From: an uncultured Erythrobacter sp. | GTDB taxonomy: Bacteria > Pseudomonadota > Alphaproteobacteria > Sphingomonadales > Sphingomonadaceae | Length of the DNA: 64,000 nt | Reading direction: 5' to 3' | Assembly (NCBI RefSeq): GCF_947497915.1 | Contig: NZ_CANMIJ010000002.1 | Span: 124,001-188,000, forward strand | Shown here: one piece after another, positions 41,064 through 45,323 of the stretch | Position numbering within the stretch: position 1 is the first letter of the stretch | How the letters are laid out: each line of letters starts with the position of its first letter | Program-made: the position numbers and the translations under genes | Notes under the pieces: model-generated | Database searches by the model: none | The model's input: the letters and a program-made list of their open reading frames with translations, nothing else | What the model was told of the DNA's origin: nothing

Positions 41064-43093
<2,030 letters not shown>

Positions 43094-43166
43094 GGAAATT
43101 GTCTAGGCGTTTCGCGTGGCTGCGTCCAGCCGATTGCTCGACCCGGCGCAGCCGCGCGGATTACAG

Positions 43167-43766: not shown

Positions 43767-43929
43767 CTTATGTGTCCCTATTCCTTCCCCGAAGATAGGA
43801 CGTATACGCTGCAAGCGCGCAGATAGTTACAGGAATTGCACGTCAGGCCGCTGCCCCAACGCCGTATCAGCTTGCCTGCCCGCACCAACAGCCTACGAAT
43901 GAAGGCCTGAATACCAATTGGGGGGCAAT

Positions 43930-44604
43930 ATGAACAACGATAGCGTCAACGACCTACAAAAACTCGACACCAATCTGGACAACACTCTCGATGCGATGCT
44001 CGCACCGATCATGGCAGTCGATGAAGAGGCGTTTCCAAAGTCTGTCCGCCAAATGCTGAAAAGAGAGATTGACGCGCAGAGCCCTAGCGGAACCTTCTGG
44101 ACGTCCAGTGATGATGCCTTGGATGACAGCATCCAAACGATCTCTGAGAAGCGAACCTTCGAAAAGAGAATGGCAGAGATTAAGCACGGAGCGGAGACTG
44201 CGACCTACGCCGCGAGCAGTGCGTATCACGACGCAAAGCTGGCCTGGAAACTGGCGCGCAACACCTATGACGACAGCAAAACCGCCATGCAGGCCGATCT
44301 CGAATACAGCGATCGGATGGCCATGAATGGGTACAAAGAGGAATTTAGCGACGATTCAAAGTCGGGTGTGTTCGCGCTCATCGCGAAATTACAAACCAAT
44401 CAGATCGCTGGCCGCAACACCCGTTCCGTTGATACAGCGGCGGCCAATACCGTTCTTAGCGAACAAGCGAGCATTCTCATCAAAGCGTATACTACGTTCA
44501 TGGACGTCACTTTCGAAATTGAGTTAACCCGAATGGAAAATCAGGCCATCGCGTTCAAGGAGTATTGGCAGGCGGTCGAAGCGATCTTCGGCACCGATGA
44601 CTGA
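43930..44604 (+). CDS. Alpha-helical soluble protein, orphan
   Basis: A 224-residue protein starting MNNDSVNDLQKLDTNLDN after GGGGGGCAAT. It is predicted to be almost fully helical, with a long charged coiled-coil-like middle (EKRTFEKRMAEIKHGAETATYAASSAYHDAKLAWKLARNTYDDSKTAMQADLEYSDRM). There is no signal peptide, membrane segment or known motif. I do not recognise it. It lies between a membrane-protein gene and the SRAP-like gene in a moderately AT-rich patch, possibly an accessory insertion. Confidence 0.7.
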   Translation: MNNDSVNDLQKLDTNLDNTLDAMLAPIMAVDEEAFPKSVRQMLKREIDAQSPSGTFWTSSDDALDDSIQTISEKRTFEKRMAEIKHGAETATYAASSAYHDAKLAWKLARNTYDDSKTAMQADLEYSDRMAMNGYKEEFSDDSKSGVFALIAKLQTNQIAGRNTRSVDTAAANTVLSEQASILIKAYTTFMDVTFEIELTRMENQAIAFKEYWQAVEAIFGTDD

Positions 44605-44654: not shown

Positions 44655-45323
44655 ATGATCCATGTAAAGCGGCTCGCAATCGTGACCGCGCTTTACCGCC
44701 TTGATTGCTCTGCTGCTCAGATCGCCTCCCGCTTTGGTGCGAGGCTTGGGGATGATCCGTGGGCGGGTGGCTATGTCGCGCCGCTCAAATTCGCACCTGT
44801 GGTTACGGCAGGGCGGGAATTCATTGCAGGGCCGCGGCCTGCGGGCGGGAGGCTACAGCCGCGGATCACGCCGCGATTGTGGGGCGTGGAGCCGCCGCCG
44901 AACTCCGATGATCCGACACGGCGCATCGCGACGGTTCGCAACCATGACAGTCCGTTCTGGATCGGGAACCTGCGCAACAGCGAATTTCGCTGCCTGATCC
45001 CTGCCACATCCGTAATGCTTTGGGGCAGCGGCACGGATTACGAAGGGCGCAGGCTCAAACACTGGTTCGCACCGAAAGACGAACCGATCTTTGCCATGGC
45101 CGCTGTCTGGAAAGACGAAGACGTTCCCGCTTTCGCGATCCTGACGACCAAAGCACGCGGCGCGGCGCAGGATGCGGGGTGCAAGGCGATGCCAATAATC
45201 CTGCCAAACCACGAGGGCGCACGGCAATTCTGGCTCCACGGCGGATGGGATAAAGTGCGCAGCCTGATCGAACGGCCAGAGCCTATCGAATTGATCGAAA
45301 CCAGCGATCCGGCGCACACGTGA
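44655..45323 (+). CDS. SRAP/YedK-family protein lacking the catalytic residues
   Basis: A 222-residue homologue of SOS-response-associated peptidases that crosslink to abasic DNA (established for YedK/HMCES). The fold is clear: ALYRLDCSAAQIASRFGA, then WAGGYVAPLKFAPVV, EFRCLIPATSVMLWG and AFAILTTKARG...CKAMPIILPNHEGARQFWL. Key residues are not: the conserved Cys2 of the family is replaced (a GTG start at 44682 would give Met-Thr-Ala-Leu), the catalytic Glu of the normal FYEW-like strand is Leu (VMLWG), and the His of HxxMP is Gly or Cys (AGCKAMP). So it is probably inactive as a crosslinker, or has another role. The start is uncertain. Confidence 0.85.
   Translation: MIHVKRLAIVTALYRLDCSAAQIASRFGARLGDDPWAGGYVAPLKFAPVVTAGREFIAGPRPAGGRLQPRITPRLWGVEPPPNSDDPTRRIATVRNHDSPFWIGNLRNSEFRCLIPATSVMLWGSGTDYEGRRLKHWFAPKDEPIFAMAAVWKDEDVPAFAILTTKARGAAQDAGCKAMPIILPNHEGARQFWLHGGWDKVRSLIERPEPIELIETSDPAHT

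Follow-up and report, generated by a model that had tools for sequence, protein, structure and literature searches.

A SRAP-family lineage of the Sphingomonadaceae with Thr or Pro in place of Cys2, a probable non-crosslinking pseudoenzyme

The window, the whole 64,000-nucleotide stretch of DNA from an uncultured Erythrobacter sp. that was analysed here, encodes a protein that, judged from its sequence and predicted model, is a SRAP protein by descent and fold but not, by its residues, a SRAP crosslinking enzyme. Our analyses indicate that it is probably a neofunctionalised SRAP pseudoenzyme, which forms no thiazolidine crosslink and instead binds a ligand non-covalently. Aravind and colleagues regarded Cys, Glu and His as absolutely conserved in SRAP (PMC3765255), and Cys2 has been called invariant (PMC9436759). 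The literature searched, which covered few subscription papers, yielded no account of a SRAP branch lacking Cys, Glu and His. A lineage-wide, selected replacement of the entire crosslinking centre, if true, would amount to a second function of the SRAP fold that is not based on the thiazolidine crosslink. SRAP annotation from fold or profile does not prove crosslinking activity.

The initial annotation had placed a full-length SRAP-family reading frame at 44655-45323. This frame is present on the + strand (222 aa in the window's ORF list), and its product matches the Pfam SRAP profile (PF02586) at 40.1 bits against a gathering score of 27.1. In sequence searches, solved SRAP structures were matched weakly. 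The AlphaFold model, for which 72 sequences served as input, has a mean pLDDT of 90.8, and each of its 21 PDB matches from Foldseek at E<0.001 is a SRAP protein, with TM scores of ~0.7; HMCES and the AP-DNA complex of YedK are among them. The window protein has no match in NCBIfam; the canonical copy likewise has none, which makes this result uninformative.

The true start of the gene appears to be GTG 44682, because the position at which relatives begin with MT.LYRLD in the alignment, via ATG, GTG, TTG or CTG, falls there. The resulting CDS of a Thr2 SRAP-like protein (44682..45323, +) encodes 213 aa. ATG 44655 lengthens the ORF upstream and is not a start common to the relatives. From GTG 44682 the N-terminus reads Met-Thr-Ala-Leu-Tyr-Arg-Leu-Asp; the codon after GTG is ACC, and residue 2 is therefore Thr. 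The loss of Cys2 had been explained earlier either by a Thr after a GTG start or by a Cys2 buried behind an N-terminal extension, and the start of the relatives supports the former explanation and removes the latter. Non-ATG starts occur in 14 of the 23 copies of the genus, a frequency that suggests weak translation. As a separate observation, CTG occupies the conserved start position in L006, L007, L008, L009/L082, L011/L083 and L014/L084, with no ATG, GTG or TTG apparent between the upstream stop and the conserved CTG in L006 and L007.

YedK, verified against PDB chains, served as the reference for residue assignments. On the alignment to YedK, the position of the crosslinking Cys2 is occupied by Thr2 (44685..44687), that of the active-site Asn75 by Thr84 (44931..44933), that of the catalytic Glu105 by Leu113 (45018..45020) and that of the catalytic His160 by Gly166 (45177..45179), whereas Arg77 is retained as Arg86 (44937..44939; all codons on the + strand). 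The replacement of the conserved Glu by Leu in VMLWG and the loss of the His of the HxxMP motif in AGCKAMP, both proposed in the initial annotation, are borne out by this alignment, with Gly166 lying one residue ahead of the Cys in AGCKAMP. The change from Asn75 to Thr84 is a fourth loss, which the initial annotation did not include. The window protein thus carries none of the four residues, Cys2, Glu105, His160 and Asn75, that mark AP-site crosslinking in SRAP proteins; across the clade, three of the four are replaced. No alternative alignment with a conserved active-site Cys, Glu or His fits, because Cys9 and Cys167 vary across the clade and Cys104 is also present in Cys2 relatives. Because dozens of independent assemblies carry these active-site substitutions, neither a sequencing error nor fusion with an upstream ORF can explain them.

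Residue counts over 103 clade members reveal unequal constraint on these positions. Residue 2 is Thr in 88 members, Pro in 14 and Leu in 1, and Gly occupies the His160 position in 102 of the 103. The Asn75 position holds Thr (52) or Ser (44), while the Glu105 position is still Glu in 58 members and is otherwise mainly Leu (25), Val (12) or Ala (5). Arg is found at the Arg77 position in 99 of 103. Two residues beyond His160, at the position of Arg162 of YedK, 71 of 103 members have Asp or Glu; the window protein has Lys. When changes were counted on a tree from which the active-site columns had been left out, there were 5 at position 2 and a single one at Gly166, compared with 32 at position 3 and 9 at the median column; Glu105 was exchanged about 10 times, through losses within the clade. 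The few changes at position 2 and Gly166 imply that Thr/Pro2 and Gly166 are constrained, whereas Asn75 and Glu105 are much freer.

The clade has also acquired conserved residues of its own, namely T42, G44, R45, E/D46, G50, R61, N96, N99 and G166. Several of these sit in a clade-specific hairpin insertion, residues 43-60 (44808..44861, +; AGREFIAGPRPAGGRLQP), in which G44, R45, E/D46 and G50 are conserved and position 46 is acidic throughout the 103 members, as Glu or Asp. The hairpin is modelled with a pLDDT of 71-74 and is not present in Cys2 relatives.

About 24 of the 114 genomes from the same genus carry a close relative, 57-88% identical when aligned along the gene. Others are found in many further genera of the family; the genera include Erythrobacter, Parerythrobacter, Pontixanthobacter, Alteraurantiacibacter, Aurantiacibacter, Novosphingobium and Sandaracinobacter. 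The named scan identified 133 relatives; sequences were retrieved for 80, and at least 76 named relatives carry the losses. Beyond the family, a profile search of 385 genomes of the class gave almost no match at E<1e-20. An in-domain stop is present in 1 of the 76 named copies (L140, a MAG), and two further copies merely end short of the tblastn match. Pairwise dN/dS is 0.07-0.18; pairs with the window protein have dS near 1 and are partly saturated, and closer pairs (dS 0.26-0.54) give 0.07-0.17. These sequence comparisons indicate that the protein is kept intact by purifying selection across the lineage.

The nearest Cys2 relatives (L062, L064, L066, L067, L069 and L072) all retain Cys, Asn and Glu, and His160 is retained in all save L067, where it is Asn. 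They share with the clade the LYRLD start and the DPW, PFWIG.L and RCL[VI]P motifs, but lack its AGREFIAGPR insertion. Both L067, a Cys2 form, and the sister-clade L063, with Ile2 and with Asn at the His position, lie near thiC like most of the clade, which suggests that the conversion from the Cys2 form took place in situ. Cys2 is missing as well from a side lineage, genus group g44, whose members mostly have Thr in its place and Gln at the His position. Its N-terminus has drifted, with L172, L186, L187 and L075 starting M[QHN]LYRLD, one residue shorter. The best tree places the g44 loss of Cys2 as independent, but a single loss is not rejected (AU test p 0.175), and we therefore do not claim two independent losses.

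In neighbourhoods with gene calls by codon-usage score, thiC is the commonest neighbour, at 70 of the 98 loci holding the gene cluster. In the window, thiC (41064-42953, -) lies upstream of the gene on the opposite strand, with an ordinary TPP riboswitch ahead of it (42990-43098, -), and a metallo-beta-lactamase-fold gene faces the SRAP-like gene. The intervening genes vary, so that a thiC operon was rejected in favour of co-location only. Directly upstream on the same strand lies a 228-aa ORF (43918-44604, +) with no Pfam or NCBIfam match. Across L080-L159, the interval from thiC to the SRAP-like gene holds very different genes from one genus to another, as though this site took up insertions. 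An SOS or repair gene neighbourhood is common though not universal for SRAP; here the conserved neighbour is thiC, and in the neighbourhoods compared no repair operon ties the gene to DNA damage. A scan for LexA-type SOS boxes with GTTCN7GTTC gave no more matches than expected by chance, and none upstream of the gene was exact.

The reading that we favour is that the gene represents a second SRAP paralog lineage of the Sphingomonadaceae/Erythrobacteraceae, often near thiC, whose crosslinking centre was dismantled by replacement of Cys2 with Thr/Pro, Asn75 with Ser/Thr, His160 with Gly and, repeatedly, Glu105 with Leu/Val/Ala. The predicted fold and the DNA-contacting Arg77 are retained, and a new conserved hairpin with R-E/D has been gained. 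A stable thiazolidine crosslink would then be impossible, and the protein would act as a non-covalent binder. In YedK, the N-terminal amine reacts with the AP site to give a Schiff base, and the stable thiazolidine is then closed by the thiol of Cys2; YedK without this thiol forms no DNA-protein crosslink (PMC9436759). YedK C2A is an AP lyase, with rates of 0.05 (C2A), 0.002 (+E105Q) and 0.02 (+H160Q), and this thiol-less lyase depends on Glu105 far more than on His160 (PMC9436759). Because the window protein lacks both the thiol and Glu105, neither crosslinking nor lyase activity would be expected at normal rates. The retained Arg77 is consistent with a nucleic acid ligand, and a DNA-binding role is a possible prediction for the window protein. 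The foremost candidate for the ligand, named here as a tentative guess, is DNA, either single-stranded or abasic, in a reversible complex. The acidic residue that most members have at the Arg162 position argues against DNA binding of the YedK type, although the Lys of the window protein departs from this pattern. The Glu105 of 58 members argues against a full pseudoenzyme throughout the clade, as some catalysis may survive there.

The possibility that the full-length but catalytically depleted protein is a decoy or is decaying had been raised in the initial annotation, and of this only the description of the protein stands. Decay might be read from the missing catalytic residues, the patchy presence within the genus, the internal stop in L140 and the N-terminal drift of g44, yet the low dN/dS, the intact ORFs, the invariant new residues and the spread over many genera make a gene heading for loss extremely improbable. 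A role as regulatory decoy or partner of the same cell's canonical SRAP finds support in the presence of that enzyme. The second SRAP gene sought in the window genome is indeed there (L001 on contig C1), with a canonical MCNLYRM start and the retained His (HSRMP), and a canonical copy accompanies the Thr form in most genomes. Nevertheless, no canonical SRAP was found in G103, G216, G264, G314 and G190, all of which have the Thr form (G190 has a second, very weak SRAP match at 24.9 bits), and in G095:C3:18044-18668 and G396:C2:70670-71235 the canonical gene is interrupted by stops or split, alongside an intact Thr form. Since the Thr form persists where the canonical enzyme is absent or broken, it seems not to depend on it, and we consider a decoy or partner role very doubtful.

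Two further alternatives would give the emptied active site another use. The pocket may bind a metabolite or a protein and have no DNA role; the frequent proximity to thiC is a hint in this direction, as is the acid that replaces a basic DNA-side residue in most members, but the variable interval between thiC and the gene, with no shared operon, and the retention of Arg77 make this unlikely. Alternatively, once Met is removed, Thr2 or Pro2 may form a Schiff base through its alpha-amine, the protein cleaving the abasic strand as an AP lyase. Thr or Pro at residue 2 in 102 of 103 members fits this proposal, both being known N-terminal amine nucleophiles, as does the mainly Glu105-dependent lyase activity of YedK C2A (PMC9436759). 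A precedent is T4 endonuclease V (T4 PDG), which works through its N-terminal Thr amine together with an active-site Glu (PMC3285167). The clade, however, has lost Glu105 repeatedly while Thr/Pro2 stayed, and the window protein has Leu at this position; because of these losses we hold AP lyase activity to be a minority view and rather improbable. In the window subclade a lyase would need a substitute for Glu105, and the invariably acidic position 46 is a possible one. The corresponding scenario, in which a suicide crosslinker turned into a turnover AP lyase with an N-terminal Thr/Pro amine and its acid relocated from Glu105 to the hairpin Glu/Asp46, is decidedly improbable; if true, it would be a case of convergence on T4 endonuclease V and Fpg.

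The favoured non-covalent pseudoenzyme can be set against several characterized systems. Compared with YedK of E. coli and human HMCES, the window protein has the same fold, overall length, Arg77 and Trp after the Glu position. It differs from both in lacking Cys2, Asn75, Glu105 and His160, and its clade has a conserved extra hairpin and, in most members, an acidic residue instead of the basic one close to His160. YedK C2A (PDB 8d2m) is likewise a SRAP fold without the N-terminal thiol, and it reacts through a Schiff base as an AP lyase; this laboratory-made variant, unlike the window protein, retains Glu105, His160 and Asn75. Fpg/Nei enzymes use the amine of an N-terminal Pro as nucleophile. 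The predicted N-termini of the clade after Met removal, Thr or Pro, are those of T4 endonuclease V and of Fpg/Nei, respectively, whereas the folds of these enzymes are unrelated to SRAP and their active-site Glu is required.
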